NCBI GenBank assembly: GCA_003577105.1
Contig: QEUQ01000021.1
Coordinates: 1-36,485 of the forward strand
Direction of reading: 5' to 3'
Origin: Acidobacteriota bacterium
GTDB taxonomy: Bacteria > Actinomycetota > Acidimicrobiia > ATN3
Length of the DNA stretch: 36,485 nucleotides
Made by a program: the position numbers and the translations under genes. How positions within the stretch are numbered: position 1 is the first letter of the stretch; each line of letters begins with the position of its first letter. The notes beneath the pieces were generated by a model that made no database searches, was not told the origin of the DNA, and was given only the letters and a program-made list of their open reading frames with translations. Positions 6,159 through 26,765 of this stretch are shown here, in pieces.

Positions 6159-6655
6159 TGCAATTCGGAAGATGTCTTGAAGATTTCACTGTCGGCGACG
6201 TCTACAAGCACTGGCCCGGCAAGACGATTACCGAAGCAGACGATCACCTCTTCTGCATGATCACCATGAATCACCATCCGCTCCACACGAACCTGCACTA
6301 TGCCGAGAACGAATCACAGTTCAAGAAGAACGTCGTCGTGGGCAATCTCGTCTATTCGCTCGCCCTCGGAATGAGCGTTCCCGACGTATCAGGGCGCGCA
6401 ATCGCCAACCTAGAGATCGAGAGCCTGAAGCACCCCGCTCCCGTATTCCACGGAGACACGATCTACGCCGAGACGGAAGTGCTTGAGGTCTCCGAATCGA
6501 AATCGAAACCCGACCGCGGGATCGTCAAGGTGCACACCATCGCCTACAACCAAGGCGGAACCATCGTCTGTGAGTTCACCCGTAAGGTGATGGTGCCAAA
6601 GAGGGAGGCCTACCCCGACGATCAGCCAGGACGGCCCGAGCCTCGCAAGGCCTGA
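6158..6655 (+). CDS. MaoC-family (R)-specific enoyl-CoA hydratase
   Basis: A 165-residue single hot-dog domain protein that would add water to an enoyl-CoA made by the preceding dehydrogenase, giving the hydroxyacyl-CoA cleaved by the CitE-like lyase. The hydratase region is ITEADDHLFCMITMNHHPLH. In classic R-hydratases this motif has a catalytic Asp five residues before the His; here that place is Asn38, with His43 kept. From memory, MaoC proteins paired with CitE-like lyases share a TMN form, so this may be a subfamily trait and not loss of function. FHGDTIYAETEV and AYNQGGTIVCEFTRKVMV are typical of the fold. The gene starts on the TGATG overlap with the dehydrogenase. Its last 34 bases overlap the 3' end of convergent mtaB. 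Confidence 0.88.
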   Translation: MQFGRCLEDFTVGDVYKHWPGKTITEADDHLFCMITMNHHPLHTNLHYAENESQFKKNVVVGNLVYSLALGMSVPDVSGRAIANLEIESLKHPAPVFHGDTIYAETEVLEVSESKSKPDRGIVKVHTIAYNQGGTIVCEFTRKVMVPKREAYPDDQPGRPEPRKA

Positions 6656-7920
6656 TCGTCGATCGGGGCGGCTCGCACATGGCTGGGCATGACAGTCTCG
6701 ACTTGTAGCTCAACATACTCCCCTAGATAGCCGGCAGGACCGCTGCTCAGAACCTTCATGTAGTTGTCGGTAATGCAGTGCAATGTGGGCCGCCCAGGAT
6801 CACCTTGGCTCGCCGCACCGACCGCTTCGACCAGCGCCGTCAGGGTTTGAGGCCGTAGTGCGTGCCGCTCATGAAACCTCAACCGGAGTTCGTCTCCCAG
6901 GCGCCGGAGCTCCTGAGAACGATCCCGCTGCGCCTCCGGTCCAATTTGATCGGGCATCTCTGCAGCCTGCGTTCCGGGGCGTCGGGAATATCGAAAGACG
7001 TGAAGCTTCATGAATTCTGAAGCGCGAACCACGCGAAGCGTGTTCTCAAACGCGTCATCGCTCTCACCGGGAAAACCCACCATGACGTCTGTTGTGAGCG
7101 CGAGCCCGTCGATTCGCTCTGAAGCCATGGCCGCTCTTTTCAGAAACTGGTCGACCGTATACGGACGGCCCATAGCCCTGAGCACACGGTCATCACCTGA
7201 CTGAAGTGGGATGTGCAGATGGCGGCAGACTCGTGCTTCATTGGCAAGTAAGTCAATCAGCTCATCGGTGACGCACGACAACTCAATCGAACTCAAGCGC
7301 AACGCGACGGTCGATGGGAGCGCGCTCAATAGCTCCTTGACTAGCAGCGCAATGCCCGTCGAATCTTCGAATCCGTACTTGCCGAGATGGACTCCCGAGA
7401 GGGTGATCTCCCTGACGCCCGCCGAAGCGAGCTTTCCGGCAGCCTCCACAACATCACCGAGCGGTCGAGACGAAGGCTCTCCTCGCGTCTCGGGGACAAT
7501 GCAGTAGGTGCACAACTCGTCGCACCCCGTCTGAACCTTCAGCGTGCGTCGCACCCTGCGCTCGAGGCCGACGCTCGCTCCCGGAACCACCTTTCCGAAA
7601 AGACGATCTGCTATTTCGTCTTTGTCCTTGTTCGGAACCACCGTCGTCACGCCCGAAATCGCGCCGACTTCGTCGGGCGCTGCGACCGCGTAGCACCCTG
7701 TCACGATCACCTCGGCATCGGGATTCTCTGCGACCGCTCTGCGGATCAACCTTCTAGATGTCCTGCTCGACTCCGAGGTCACGGTGCAGGTATTGACCAC
7801 AACTACGTCGGCCGCGGACTCGACGAGGTTGGCACCCCTCGCCTGAAACGCGTCGACCAACTCGGTGCTCTCGGCCTGATTTAGCCGGCATCCCACAGTC
7901 TTGAGGAGAACAGAACTCAT
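6622..7920 (-). CDS. mtaB: tRNA t6A37 methylthiotransferase, MtaB type
   Basis: Radical-SAM enzyme that adds a methylthio group to modified A37 of tRNA. The 432-residue protein has the three-domain MiaB/MtaB plan. The N-terminal UPF0004 domain has cluster cysteines at 11 (TVGCRLNQAES), 45 (NTCTVT) and 76 (TGCYA). The radical-SAM domain has Cys133, Cys137 and Cys140 in TGCDELCTYC, plus LRLSSIE and HIPLQSGDDRVLRAMGR. A TRAM-like C-terminal region starts around residue 360. GCRLNQAES and the loop sequences fit MtaB (t6A) better than MiaB (i6A), but that call is by eye. The start is ATG 7920, with only a weak ribosome-binding site. It lies 35 bp after the BldD-like gene in the hrcA-dnaJ direction. 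Confidence 0.9.
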   Translation of the reverse strand: MSSVLLKTVGCRLNQAESTELVDAFQARGANLVESAADVVVVNTCTVTSESSRTSRRLIRRAVAENPDAEVIVTGCYAVAAPDEVGAISGVTTVVPNKDKDEIADRLFGKVVPGASVGLERRVRRTLKVQTGCDELCTYCIVPETRGEPSSRPLGDVVEAAGKLASAGVREITLSGVHLGKYGFEDSTGIALLVKELLSALPSTVALRLSSIELSCVTDELIDLLANEARVCRHLHIPLQSGDDRVLRAMGRPYTVDQFLKRAAMASERIDGLALTTDVMVGFPGESDDAFENTLRVVRASEFMKLHVFRYSRRPGTQAAEMPDQIGPEAQRDRSQELRRLGDELRLRFHERHALRPQTLTALVEAVGAASQGDPGRPTLHCITDNYMKVLSSGPAGYLGEYVELQVETVMPSHVRAAPIDDQALRGSGRPG

Positions 7921-7955: not shown

Positions 7956-8510
7956 TCAGGCTCCAAGGTCTGCGAGAAGCCCCATCTCGCCGAGGCGCTC
8001 GACGAAATCATCAAGATCTAAGTCGAGAAGATGGCCGATCGTTCTCAGGTCATCGCGGCGTATCGTCAGCACTCGGCCATTGAAGTCCTGCCGCTCAAGC
8101 TGAATGCGAGTTAGGTACCGCTCGAGAACGGCCATCTCGGCAGAGCCGTTGCGCCTCAGGACCCTCAGATCGATAGCAACCGTCTCGCTGCCTCCCCGGG
8201 TCTCTCTTCCATGGATGACTCCGTCTTCACCGGGAAGCAGCTGATCCACGCTGACCGAATAGAACTCAGCTAGGCGCGACAGGCGCGGAACTGAAATGGA
8301 GCGCTCCCCCCGCTCGTACGCGCCGAGAACAGAAGCTTTGAATTCCTTGCCGGACTGGGCCTCGACGTCATGGAGGGACATCCCCTGCTGGCGGCGGATT
8401 TCCCTCAGCCGACTGCCTACCCGCCGGGCGTACTCACCGCGATCGGCGCTGTTATCGAGTTCGGCCGAGTCCTCTGTGATGTCGATATCTGTGCTCAATT
8501 TCCTGCCCAT
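7956..8510 (-). CDS. BldD-like XRE transcription regulator with c-di-GMP-binding signature
   Basis: A 184-residue DNA-binding regulator. An N-terminal XRE helix-turn-helix (residues 27-95: YARRVGSRLREIRRQQGMSL, then VLGAYERGERSISVPRLSRLAEFYSV and QLLPGEDG) closely resembles Streptomyces BldD as I recall it. The C-terminal domain has RYLTRIQLERQDFNGRVLTI followed by RRDDLRTI. This gives Arg140-Gln-Asp142, eight residues, then Arg151-x-x-Asp154, an exact fit to the RxD-X8-RxxD motif by which BldD binds tetrameric c-di-GMP. About 25 extra residues precede the BldD-equivalent start. I chose ATG 8510 because a possible promoter (8547-8574) lies upstream of it and because the longer frame from 8579 would begin before that promoter. 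BldD represses development genes with c-di-GMP as co-repressor; the regulon here is unknown. Confidence 0.85.
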   Translation of the reverse strand: MGRKLSTDIDITEDSAELDNSADRGEYARRVGSRLREIRRQQGMSLHDVEAQSGKEFKASVLGAYERGERSISVPRLSRLAEFYSVSVDQLLPGEDGVIHGRETRGGSETVAIDLRVLRRNGSAEMAVLERYLTRIQLERQDFNGRVLTIRRDDLRTIGHLLDLDLDDFVERLGEMGLLADLGA

Positions 8511-8546
8511 GCCTAGTCGCCATCGGCTGCGCCGCCCGCCGAAAGT

Positions 8547-8574
8547 GTTATCGCTTTGCACTCTAGCAAGGCAA
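8547..8574 (-). promoter_or_regulatory. Candidate promoter of the BldD-like gene
   Basis: On the minus strand TTGCCT (8574-8569) and GATAAC (8552-8547) are 16 bp apart, each matching four of six consensus bases. Transcription would start about 30 bases before ATG 8510. The spacer contains the dyad TTGC-N6-GCAA, preceded by two more TTGC words, a possible operator for autoregulation. The evidence is weak and positional only. Confidence 0.35.
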
Positions 8575-8618
8575 TGCAAGTCCCGCGGCGCCGCGTAGGC
8601 AGCGGGAGCAGAGCTTGT

Positions 8619-9710
8619 CTAGAGCTTCGAGGACCTCCGGCTCCGGCTCTCGCCTCCAACCTTCTCGCCCCTGAGCTCCGCGAGTTGACGGATCAGATCC
8701 GATTCGGCCTCAGAGAGATCGGTCGGCACGGTCACGTTAATCGTTACCACCAAGTCTCCCCTCCCTCGCCTGTGGATCCTCGGAACTCCGGCACCCTTGA
8801 TCTTGATCAGTGTGCCGTGCTGGGTACCAGGTTCGACAATAACCTCGGTGTCGCCATCGAGACTCGGAACCACGAGTGCCGTGCCGAGGGCAGCTTGTGC
8901 AATGGATATGTCGGCGCGATAGAACAAGTTAATGCCGTTGCGTTCTAGCACCGAGTGAGGGCGCACCCTCAGAGTCACGTACAAGTCACCCGGCCGGCCT
9001 CCCCGGCGCGCGGCGTGGCCGCGGCCTTCGATTCGAAGCTGAGACCCGTCTTCTATGCCGGCAGGAACCTCCACAGAGATTGTCCTGGCATCTTGAATTC
9101 TTCCCTCGCCTCGGCATGTCTGGCACGGACTCGTGATTTCCTCACCGGTGCCGCTGCATTGCTGGCATGGATACGCGACGGCGACAGGTCCGAGGAAAGT
9201 TCTGCGGACATCCCTTACTTCCCCCGTGCCACCGCAGCGGCTGCACCTACCGGGATGCGTGCCCGCCTCGGCACCCGATCCCGAGCAGCCCTCACAGGAA
9301 ACAAGCATTTCGATCGGGGGCAAGTCCAAAGTCGTACCGAAGACTCCCTGCTCGAAAGAGAGCTCTGCCTCGACGACGACATCGCCGCCCGAGGCGCGCC
9401 CGCGCCTTGAACCCGGGCGGCCAAAAGCATCGCCAAAGAACATATCGAAGATGCTGCCGAAGTCCGCGGGACCACCACCAACACCACCGGCGCGCTGACC
9501 GAACATGTCGTACTGCCGGCGACGCTCCGGATCCGAGAGGACTTCGTAAGCCTCGGCTACCTCTTTGAATCGCTCTTCGGCCTTGGGATCATCGGGGTTC
9601 GCGTCGGGGTGATACTCACGCGCCAGACTTCGAAATGCCGACTTGATCTCACGCGCGTCCGCATCTCGCCTGATGCCGAGGACTTCGTAGTAATCGAATT
9701 CGGCCCTCAC
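8619..9710 (-). CDS. dnaJ: Chaperone DnaJ (type I Hsp40)
   Basis: Co-chaperone that delivers unfolded clients to DnaK and stimulates its ATPase. The 363-residue protein has a J domain (DYYEVLGI at residue 6, HPD at 34-36, [10 protein letters not shown]), then a short glycine/phenylalanine-rich linker ([21 protein letters not shown]). The zinc domain has four CxxCxGxG repeats ([32 protein letters not shown]), followed by C-terminal substrate-binding domains. The start is GTG 9710 with GAGAGG five bases upstream. It lies 19 bp after hrcA, so it should be under the same CIRCE/HrcA heat-shock control. Many actinobacteria carry a second dnaJ beside dnaK; this one corresponds to the hrcA-linked copy. 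Confidence 0.97.
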
Positions 9711-9729: not shown

Positions 9730-10803
9730 TCATGCCAGAGGTCGACGCGAGCGCTTTGACGCAGAGCCATATTCGAGCAGATATCCCAGCCGACTTGATA
9801 TCTCGGCAACACCGGAGATCACCGTCGAGTAGTCCATTCTCGTAGGGCCAACTACCCCAATGGTGCCGAGATTCTGTCCGCCGGCCCCGAAGCCAGTCGC
9901 CACCAGTGTGCAGTGACGCAGCGCATCGAGGGGAATCTCGCCCCCGATCAGAACCGCGACCGGCTCGGCATCTACCGCGCTCCTAAGCAGTCCCACCAAC
10001 GTCGCCTGCTGCTCGAGGAGTTCGAGTACTCGATGAATGTCGGCCGGATCTCTGAATGAGCCCTCGGCTGCGGTCCTGTGCGCCCCACCGAGATAGTAGG
10101 GAGCCTGTGCCTCGAAGTCGTCGGCGTCAAAGGCCCGGGCCAACGCCGCGATGATCACCAGGGCTCCCTCGGCAGGCGGGTCCTTCGGGGCTCCCGCAAG
10201 ACTCAGGGCGGCTAGCTCGTTCAATCCCTCTAATGCCGTTTGCCCAACCATCGCGGCCTTGAATCTGCCGGCAGCCTCCTCTACATCGGCGACCGAAACC
10301 GCGTCTCCTAGGTCGATTCTCCGACTCTCCACCTGTCCGGTATCTGATACCAACGTCGCGAGGATCAGCGTGTCGCCAAGGCGATCGAGATGCGCGCCAC
10401 GTATGAGGCGCTGGCTCGCAACCGGCCCGACAACCACGGCGGCATGGTCGGTGACCTCGGCAACAAGGCGTGATGTCTCGGCGAGCAGGGTTCGCATTTC
10501 GGCCCGGGCATGTGAGAAGAAGCGCTCGACCATGCGCTTCAAAGCGGGACGAAGGTGAATCAAGTGCTCGACGTTGTCGACATACTGGCGATAGCCGAGG
10601 TCGGTCGGTACACGACCAGCCGAGGTGTGCGGCTGCTCTATATAGCCCTCACGCTCGAGCTGCTTCATGTCATTTCTTACCGTTGCAGCCGAGACGCCGA
10701 GATTGCGCGTCATTACAACGGTCTGCGAACCAACTGGTATTCCGGTCGAAATGTACTCCTCGACAATCGCCGAGAGGATCGCCTGTTTACGTTCGTCGAG
10801 CAT
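9730..10803 (-). CDS. hrcA: Heat-inducible transcription repressor HrcA
   Basis: Repressor that binds CIRCE operators and shuts off chaperone genes until heat titrates its folding by GroEL. The 357-residue protein has the N-terminal winged helix (MLDERKQAILSAIVEEYIST, then GVSAATVRNDMKQLEREGYI and QPHTSAGRVPTDLGYRQYVD). The central region and the C-terminal GIVGPTRMDYSTV-type core (here TIGVVGPTRMDYSTVISGV) are also present. The start is ATG 10803. A CIRCE-like element lies 37 bp upstream (10841-10867), so the gene is predicted to be autoregulated. The hrcA-dnaJ pair follows hemW, the normal actinobacterial order. Confidence 0.97.
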   Translation of the reverse strand: MLDERKQAILSAIVEEYISTGIPVGSQTVVMTRNLGVSAATVRNDMKQLEREGYIEQPHTSAGRVPTDLGYRQYVDNVEHLIHLRPALKRMVERFFSHARAEMRTLLAETSRLVAEVTDHAAVVVGPVASQRLIRGAHLDRLGDTLILATLVSDTGQVESRRIDLGDAVSVADVEEAAGRFKAAMVGQTALEGLNELAALSLAGAPKDPPAEGALVIIAALARAFDADDFEAQAPYYLGGAHRTAAEGSFRDPADIHRVLELLEQQATLVGLLRSAVDAEPVAVLIGGEIPLDALRHCTLVATGFGAGGQNLGTIGVVGPTRMDYSTVISGVAEISSRLGYLLEYGSASKRSRRPLA

Positions 10804-10840: not shown

Positions 10841-10867
10841 TTAGCACTCAGACCCAGCGACTGATAA
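10841..10867 (-). promoter_or_regulatory. CIRCE operator (HrcA box) overlapping hemW stop
   Basis: On the plus strand TTAGCACTC (10841-10849), a 9-base spacer, then GACTGATAA (10859-10867). This fits the CIRCE pattern TTAGCACTC-N9-GAGTGCTAA, with the left arm perfect and the right arm seven of nine. It lies 37 bp upstream of the hrcA ATG. On the minus strand TTATCA (10867-10862) and TAAAAT (10843-10838) are 18 bp apart and could be the -35 and -10, so bound HrcA would cover the promoter. The hemW stop codon (10843-10841) is part of the element. Confidence 0.85.
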
Positions 10868-24867: not shown

Positions 24868-25034
24868 GTCACCTTCGTGCCTATGGTTTGCCACTACACC
24901 GAATCTGCAGATCCCGATAGGATCATGCACAGGCGGCTACGAGAGCATACGCGGCGCGCTGTGACAATCGAGATCTCCAACGCTTGTCAACCTCGCCTGC
25001 GAGCACCCGCCAACAATGCTTTTCTGGAGGAACT

Positions 25035-26765
25035 TTGGCAGAGGGTTCGCGGATCCTGATCGTTGATGACGAGCCAGGGATCAGACAAGTAATCAACACG
25101 AACCTGGTCATGCAGGGATACGAGACGCTCGAGGCGAAGAACGGGCGGCAGTGCCTCGATATTCTCGCCGAAGAAGAGGCGATCGACCTCGTGATCCTAG
25201 ACGTGATGATGCCAGGGACCAACGGGTGGGAAGTCCTTGAGTCCATGAGGGATCAGCCGGAGATGGCCGGGATATCGGTGATGCTCCTCACGGCGGTGAG
25301 CACAGAGGAAAGCAAGGTCAAAGGATTTGAGCTTGGCGCCGCCGACTATCTCGTCAAGCCGTTCGCGATCGGTGAGCTTCTCGCTAGGGTGCAAAGAATT
25401 CTGAGCGAGAAGCAGGAGCGCGAAGCCCTTGCCGAGTTTTCGATCACCGACTGGGTAACCGGCCTATTCAACCGCCGCTACCTCGAGCTGCGCCTCGGGC
25501 AAGAAATTGCGAGATCACTCAGGTACAAGAGTGCGCTCTCGGGCATTTTTTTCGATATCGATCAGCTGCCCGCAATAAACGAACACGACGGGCCAAAGCT
25601 GATCGACGCGCTGCTCGGACAGCTTGCCTCATTGCTGCGCGGGCAAATCCGGGCCTGCGATCTAGTCTTCCGCTACGACGGCGATTTCTTCTTCTTGCTG
25701 CTGCCTGACACCGACGGAGTCGGAGCCTTCGAAGTCGCAGAGCGAATCAGGCGAACGATCTCCTCAGAGGAGTGGACTGAGAACAAGCAGCTGACCGCAT
25801 CGATCGGATTGGTGGAACTTTCCCAAGGCGAGACGCCCGAAGGCTTCGTCAGTCGGGCAGAGGAGGCCCTTCATCAGGCCAAAGCACTTGGCGGCGACGC
25901 AACGTGGTCGGCATTTGCCACCGCAGGCGGGAGAGCTCCGGAGCCGGAGCCGATCTCGGCTGCCGAGCCCGAACCCGTTGTGGCTGCCGAGCCCGAACCG
26001 GGCTTTGCGCTGCCGGAGGTCTCAGTCTCAGAGCAGCCTCTCCCAGAGGTGCCGGTATCGACTTTCTCAGGAGTTGCGCCGCCTGAATATCTTGAGCCAG
26101 CTGCTACCGAGGCGCCTATAGCTGAACCTGTCGATTCTCAACCGGCTGCCGGGCCCGCCTCGCAGGCATCGATTCCCCTGCCGACCGCGCAAACTCAGGT
26201 GATGCGGGCTGGGGACCTCTCCGCACTTCGTGAGAGCCTCACCACCCCGGATACTGCGGCGCCCGGGCCGTCGGAACTACAAGGGTCACCCGATAACGAA
26301 ACGCCTCCGCCCGCCCATGAGCCCGAGCCGGTTGTGGCTCCCGAGCCGGTCATGACTCCCGAGCCGACGCCGGCCCCCGCGCCCGCACCTCCCTCATATG
26401 AGCCCCAACCCCAACCCCAACCCCAGTACGCTGAGCCGGTACAGCCGGCATATCAGCCAGCATCACCGACCTATCCGGCCGCAAGCACGGCTTCAGGATG
26501 GGGCACTCAGCAGCCACCGGCCGCTCAGCCAGCCCCGGCCGACGCTCAGCCAGCCCCGGCCGCAGGCCAGCCAGAGCAGCTCCAAGAGCAACCGCAAGCC
26601 GCTCCCCCCGGACCAGCCAGCTGGGCTGACGCCCAAATGATGGCAGCCACCCAATTCACAGCAGCGCCGGCAGCTCAGGCCGCACCGCCTGGTGCCGAAG
26701 CTCAGCTGGAACAAGCCCAACCTGGCGAACAGACGTATCCGCCTGACCAGCAACCCCGGCAATAG
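25035..26765 (+). CDS. Receiver plus degenerate GGDEF protein with long Pro/Ala/Glu tail
   Basis: A 576-residue cytoplasmic protein starting at TTG 25035, which follows GGAGG by four bases; the frame extends 17 codons upstream without such a site. Residues 4-122 are a response-regulator receiver with phosphoacceptor Asp56 (VILDVMMP), Asp11-Asp12 and Lys108. Residues 135-290 are a GGDEF domain: WVTGLFNRRYLELRL, FFDIDQLPAINEHDG, then DGDFF at 215-219 where active enzymes have GGDEF or GGEEF. The metal-binding Glu is replaced by Phe, so cyclase activity is unlikely. The product-binding inhibitory motif RxxD (RACD, 206-209) is kept at the right distance. Residues about 300-576 are low-complexity, rich in Pro, Ala, Glu and Gln (PEPEP, PQPQPQ, QPAPA), probably disordered. 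It is divergent from leuS. A c-di-GMP effector role is inferred. Confidence 0.85.
   Translation: MAEGSRILIVDDEPGIRQVINTNLVMQGYETLEAKNGRQCLDILAEEEAIDLVILDVMMPGTNGWEVLESMRDQPEMAGISVMLLTAVSTEESKVKGFELGAADYLVKPFAIGELLARVQRILSEKQEREALAEFSITDWVTGLFNRRYLELRLGQEIARSLRYKSALSGIFFDIDQLPAINEHDGPKLIDALLGQLASLLRGQIRACDLVFRYDGDFFFLLLPDTDGVGAFEVAERIRRTISSEEWTENKQLTASIGLVELSQGETPEGFVSRAEEALHQAKALGGDATWSAFATAGGRAPEPEPISAAEPEPVVAAEPEPGFALPEVSVSEQPLPEVPVSTFSGVAPPEYLEPAATEAPIAEPVDSQPAAGPASQASIPLPTAQTQVMRAGDLSALRESLTTPDTAAPGPSELQGSPDNETPPPAHEPEPVVAPEPVMTPEPTPAPAPAPPSYEPQPQPQPQYAEPVQPAYQPASPTYPAASTASGWGTQQPPAAQPAPADAQPAPAAGQPEQLQEQPQAAPPGPASWADAQMMAATQFTAAPAAQAAPPGAEAQLEQAQPGEQTYPPDQQPRQ
26400..26570 (+). repeat. 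Short direct repeats in the low-complexity tail
   Basis: The C-terminal tail is coded by short imperfect repeats: CAACCC units near 26403-26425 and two copies of a CTCAGCCAGCCCCGGCCG-type word around 26524-26563. These give the PQPQPQ and AQPAPA segments. Such stretches readily expand or contract, so tail length may vary between strains. Confidence 0.6.

Follow-up and report, generated by a model that had tools for sequence, protein, structure and literature searches.

The reverse-strand gene at 7956-8510 of the window (the whole 36,485-nucleotide stretch of DNA that was analysed), which we call BldD-A, encodes a DNA-binding regulator of the BldD family, and we consider it highly probable that this regulator is gated by c-di-GMP. 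BldD-A represents a familiar type of regulator well and is no oddity; it belongs to an old, dnaJ-linked branch that is probably separate from the one to which Streptomyces BldD belongs. The BldD-c-di-GMP switch is best known for its control of Streptomyces spore formation. The window comes from an Acidimicrobiia metagenome-assembled genome of 2.87 Mb in 104 contigs, and the relatives named below are likewise assembled genomes of Acidimicrobiia and other Actinomycetota. The features to which we refer are these:

7956-8510, reverse strand: BldD-family regulator gene of the dnaJ-linked type, BldD-A (open reading frame and translation, Pfam, PDB sequence and fold matches)
8238-8408, reverse strand: XRE-type helix-turn-helix DNA-binding domain, residues 35-91 (HTH_3, 2ewt, model match)
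7974-8180, reverse strand: BldD-like C-terminal domain, residues 111-179 (PF21179; model matches 4oaz, 5tzf and 5khd)
8049-8093, reverse strand: c-di-GMP signature RQD-X8-RRDD, residues 140-154 (regular-expression match; alignment to S. coelicolor R114/D116/R125/D128)
8619-9710, reverse strand: dnaJ, conserved upstream neighbour of BldD-A (open reading frame; order kept in relatives)
9730-10803, reverse strand: hrcA, conserved neighbour beyond dnaJ (open reading frame; order kept in relatives)
6622-7920, reverse strand: mtaB-type tRNA methylthiotransferase gene, downstream of BldD-A (open reading frame; same gene order at L055, in a relative from the same taxonomic order)

Both halves of the protein support the family assignment. 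Pfam matches were found to HTH_3 (PF01381, E 2.2e-10) and to BldD-like_C (PF21179, E 6.6e-17, 61.5 bits against a cut-off of 27), and a PDB sequence search returned 2ewt, the DNA-binding domain of BldD (E 2.6e-19), together with chains of the BldD C-terminal domain, among them 4oaz and 5khd, which are complexes with c-di-GMP (E about 5e-8). The AlphaFold model has a mean pLDDT of 76, with both domains mostly above 70 and low values in the N-terminus and linker. Its helix-turn-helix domain fits the BldD DNA-binding domains 4ob4 and 2ewt with an rmsd of 0.6-0.7 Å, and the best fold matches of its C-terminal part are BldD-c-di-GMP C-terminal domains (4oaz, 5tzf, 5khd). The preliminary description had called the protein a BldD homologue, and this agreement of both domains with solved Streptomyces structures, in sequence and in predicted fold, bears it out.

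BldD-A shares the two-domain layout and the RXD-X8-RXXD signature with the BldD proteins of Streptomyces coelicolor and S. venezuelae (2ewt, 4oaz, 5khd, 5tzd), and its helix-turn-helix is 55% identical to theirs over the solved domain. Overall identity, however, is 46%; BldD-A reads EFKAS where the Streptomyces protein reads RWKAV before the recognition helix, it has a threonine at the K84 position, its gene is linked to dnaJ and not to nusB, and it lacks a box before its own gene. The open reading frame starts with an ATG at 8510 and encodes 184 amino acids. Because a possible alternative TTG start at 8496-8498 (residue 5) lies behind a better purine-rich stretch, the exact translation start is uncertain; the roughly 25 extra N-terminal residues claimed earlier amount to about 24 relative to Streptomyces BldD if the ATG is used.

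The C-terminal domain carries RQD-FNGRVLTI-RRDD at residues 140-154, so that the earlier numbering (Arg140-Gln-Asp142, eight residues, Arg151-Arg-Asp-Asp154) is exact. This match is not a matter of chance, because it falls at the homologous place of a BldD-like_C domain behind HTH_3. The published c-di-GMP contacts of Streptomyces BldD are R114, D116, R125, D128, R130, K84, I110, N118 and S123 (PMC4151990), and they align, in the same order, with R140, D142, R151, D154, R156, T110, I136, N144 and T149. Eight of the nine are therefore kept or conservatively replaced, with R140, D142, R151, D154, I136, N144 and R156 (the last three equivalent to I110, N118 and R130) unchanged and S123 represented by T149. 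Only K84 has no equivalent: it aligns with Thr110, neither lysine nor arginine, whereas this phosphate-contacting residue is K or R among the homologues surveyed in PMC4151990. As the four guanine-reading residues are intact, c-di-GMP binding by BldD-A is likely.

The genome also appears to supply the ligand. It contains 11 GGDEF matches, and five cyclase domains, encoded on contigs C1 (two), C73, C68 and C85, keep a GGDEF, GGEEF or AGDEF motif; a single EAL domain (E 7.7e-80) is fused to an AGDEF domain. These five intact domains and the EAL domain indicate that c-di-GMP is probably made and, as far as motifs can tell, the genome is not one devoid of active GGDEF enzymes. The remaining GGDEF matches are degenerate, including one within the window: a receiver-GGDEF protein (24984-26765, forward strand) whose active site reads RYDGDFFF (YDGDFF) and which has a long Pro/Ala/Glu-rich tail is probably inactive as a cyclase. 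Taken with the fold and the class-wide conservation of the signature described below, these cyclase genes support the c-di-GMP control considered in the preliminary description: BldD-A very probably senses c-di-GMP.

If BldD-A works as Streptomyces BldD does, then at high c-di-GMP two C-terminal domains would clamp a c-di-GMP tetramer through RQD-X8-RRDD, bringing the helix-turn-helix domains together on palindromic BldD-box DNA. By this analogy the bound dimer would most likely repress its targets, and a fall in c-di-GMP would let it dissociate and release them. A role related to stationary phase, the surface or lifestyle seems more likely than one in mycelial sporulation.

The preliminary description had also placed the gene between dnaJ and mtaB, near the heat-shock genes, which is correct, and had presented it as lying outside the usual developmental context. 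The latter holds in that the gene belongs to an Acidimicrobiia genome in which no flagellin match was found, but the situation is neither unusual nor new. A bldD orthologue was reported in 2013 in Acidimicrobium, a member of the same class, by Chandra and Chater, who suggested that BldD dates back to very early actinobacteria and acts in growth or stationary phase in the simpler members (PMC4255298); their study appeared before the c-di-GMP discovery and does not cover the signature, the two copies or the upstream boxes in this class. BldD matches occur in 138 of 198 Acidimicrobiia genomes sampled and in 156 of 246 genomes across the phylum, the weakest of these matches covering the helix-turn-helix domain only, and signature-bearing BldD proteins are found in several other Actinomycetota families. 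The usual gene order, hrcA-dnaJ-(often an rsmE-like gene)-bldD, is conserved in relatives, and mtaB is also close to bldD at L186 and L188. A position adjoining dnaJ is thus ordinary for the dnaJ-linked branch and the norm in deep-branching Actinomycetota, and the BldD-c-di-GMP switch is an old one, common among simple Actinobacteria, most of them non-mycelial.

We read 100 dnaJ-linked orthologues from the class: RXD-X8-RXXD is intact in 87 of them and lost in the other 13. Genomes lacking a strong GGDEF domain make up nine of these 13 as against two of the 87 with the signature (Fisher p 2e-8, uncorrected for the tree); eight of the nine belong to a single family, f10, and with only two to four independent events the co-loss is not significant after tree correction. 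Within f10, the C-terminal signature is eroded or lost at L065-L071, L073 and L074, as it is at L072 (genome G074); most of these genomes lack strong GGDEF domains or have few of them, whereas L063 and L064, from two further f10 genomes, keep both signature and domains. Four genomes (G006, G085, G009 and G079) have lost the signature and retained GGDEF domains. Among these, G006 is the only sampled relative from the same order: its syntenic orthologue (L055:4745-5257, gene order as in the window) has a broken motif 1 (RGS) and an intact motif 2 (RRED), in a genome with 10 GGDEF domains. Conservation of the signature close to the window BldD is therefore not to be assumed.

To look at the DNA target, we searched the 160 bp that precede residue 26 at 106 dnaJ-linked bldD loci for TYAC-N5-GTRA, the Streptomyces BldD box being TNAC-N5-GTNA (PMC4151990). 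Exact boxes stand at 10 loci, which represent nine families or more, and six control patterns gave none. Boxes with at most one mismatch were found at 37 loci against 1-10 for the controls; control windows from the same loci gave 0.35% exact and 6.6% when one mismatch was allowed. The signal is specific to a spacing of five, as TCAC/GTGA with a spacing of four gave no exact site and with a spacing of six gave one, and an N(C/G)AGN core was present in 19 of the 37 sites where about two were expected. This strong, class-wide enrichment of a Streptomyces-type box upstream of dnaJ-linked bldD genes is new, parallels the arrangement of Streptomyces BldD, and suggests that self-control through the box is probably old. 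Upstream of the window BldD-A itself there is no BldD box, even if one mismatch is allowed, and no exact box occurs anywhere in the window; a promoter scan of 8400-8760 found nothing. As a predictor of a regulon, a genome-wide scan for TCAC-N5-GTGA failed: the reversed pattern had 21 sites and the box 45, yet 39 of these 45 lie inside predicted genes, as often as a coding fraction of 0.87 would lead one to expect, and the excess is therefore not regulatory. A perfect TCACTCTTTGTGA palindrome at L209:1486-1498 (G000:C32:138285) falls in a gap left by the gene predictions, in front of an rsmH-like gene, and could possibly be a box at a cell-division cluster.

The window genome contains a second BldD (G000:C30:67464-67910; L054:5453-5977), upstream of lysC-asd-like genes, with an intact signature (RGDFNGKILTIRGAD) and a lysine at the K84 position. 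That such a copy exists, and that it lies nearer to Streptomyces BldD than BldD-A does in the best tree, is likewise new. In that tree, whose root placement is not fixed, six of eight second copies, including this one, grouped with Streptomyces BldD (branch 99/96), and BldD-A fell in a separate dnaJ-linked clade on a fairly long branch (1.05). Both types also occur together in single genomes (G244, G385) of family f59, probably Nitriliruptoria. This suggests two ancient BldD branches, although trees constrained to keep the Acidimicrobiia copies together are not rejected by AU tests (p 0.08 with every Acidimicrobiia row in the constraint, p 0.24 for a wider grouping). Those p values leave some room for BldD-A being a plain one-to-one orthologue of Streptomyces BldD, with the second copy a later duplicate specific to Acidimicrobiia, and the two copies are nearly equally like the Streptomyces protein (46% for BldD-A, 50% for the second). 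We regard that history as unlikely though far from negligible, given the placement of the second copies apart from the dnaJ-linked type, the f59 genomes, and the nusB-efp context of Streptomyces bldD (L158). A fuller account, which we advance tentatively and at a little short of an even chance, is that two signature-bearing branches are older than the class split, that the dnaJ-linked one is a self-regulated c-di-GMP switch of non-mycelial lineages, that cells like the present one run the two switches in parallel, and that Streptomyces later took one branch for sporulation.

The second copy also bears on whether BldD-A itself responds to c-di-GMP. BldD-A could bind DNA after its lineage lost c-di-GMP dependence, leaving the input to the copy beside lysC-asd; the loss of motif 1 in G006 despite its order and synteny, the replacement of Lys84 by Thr110 in a genome whose second copy keeps both signature and lysine, the long branch and the missing self-box would all fit. 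Set against these are the four intact specificity residues, most of the secondary contacts and the conservation of the signature across the class, and we find such a loss doubtful. It is very improbable that BldD-A simply controls genes at its own locus, either the heat-shock operon or the neighbouring RNA modification genes, as might be supposed from its conserved position beside hrcA-dnaJ and from the rsmE-like genes or mtaB close by in some genomes. Linkage to housekeeping genes is no proof of regulation, the boxes in relatives stand upstream of bldD itself, and the window holds no exact box; moreover, a near-consensus CIRCE directly upstream of hrcA (10841-10867, an inverted repeat with two mismatches) already accounts for heat-shock control, and our CIRCE search found this one site and none before bldD. 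We retain c-di-GMP gating as the preferred reading of BldD-A.

A comparable case is the RsiG-WhiG c-di-GMP switch of Rubrobacter, in which a Streptomyces developmental device serves type IV pili in unicellular actinobacteria (PMC8325347). The window genome likewise has strong type IV pilus/secretion ATPases and a WhiG/FliA-type sigma factor gene (L240:3886-4704, G000:C70, E 2e-84), which adjoins a run of genes resembling rpsB-tsf-pyrH-frr, the names being read from translations. The RsiG-WhiG switch is, however, unrelated to BldD-A in protein family and mechanism, and an RsiG-type motif was not found in the three stretches searched (L240-L242). SsgA gave no match in the genome, and as control genomes were likewise without a match, this absence is not usable.

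These results have implications that concern the family more than the single gene: beyond the mycelial actinobacteria there is a BldD-c-di-GMP system that is old and probably has two branches. The natural losses of the signature, in f10, in G074 of family f25, in G006 and in f9, provide ready comparisons. If BldD-A binds c-di-GMP as predicted, the BldD-c-di-GMP switch would be older than mycelial sporulation, and the role of BldD before Streptomyces would become a directly testable question.
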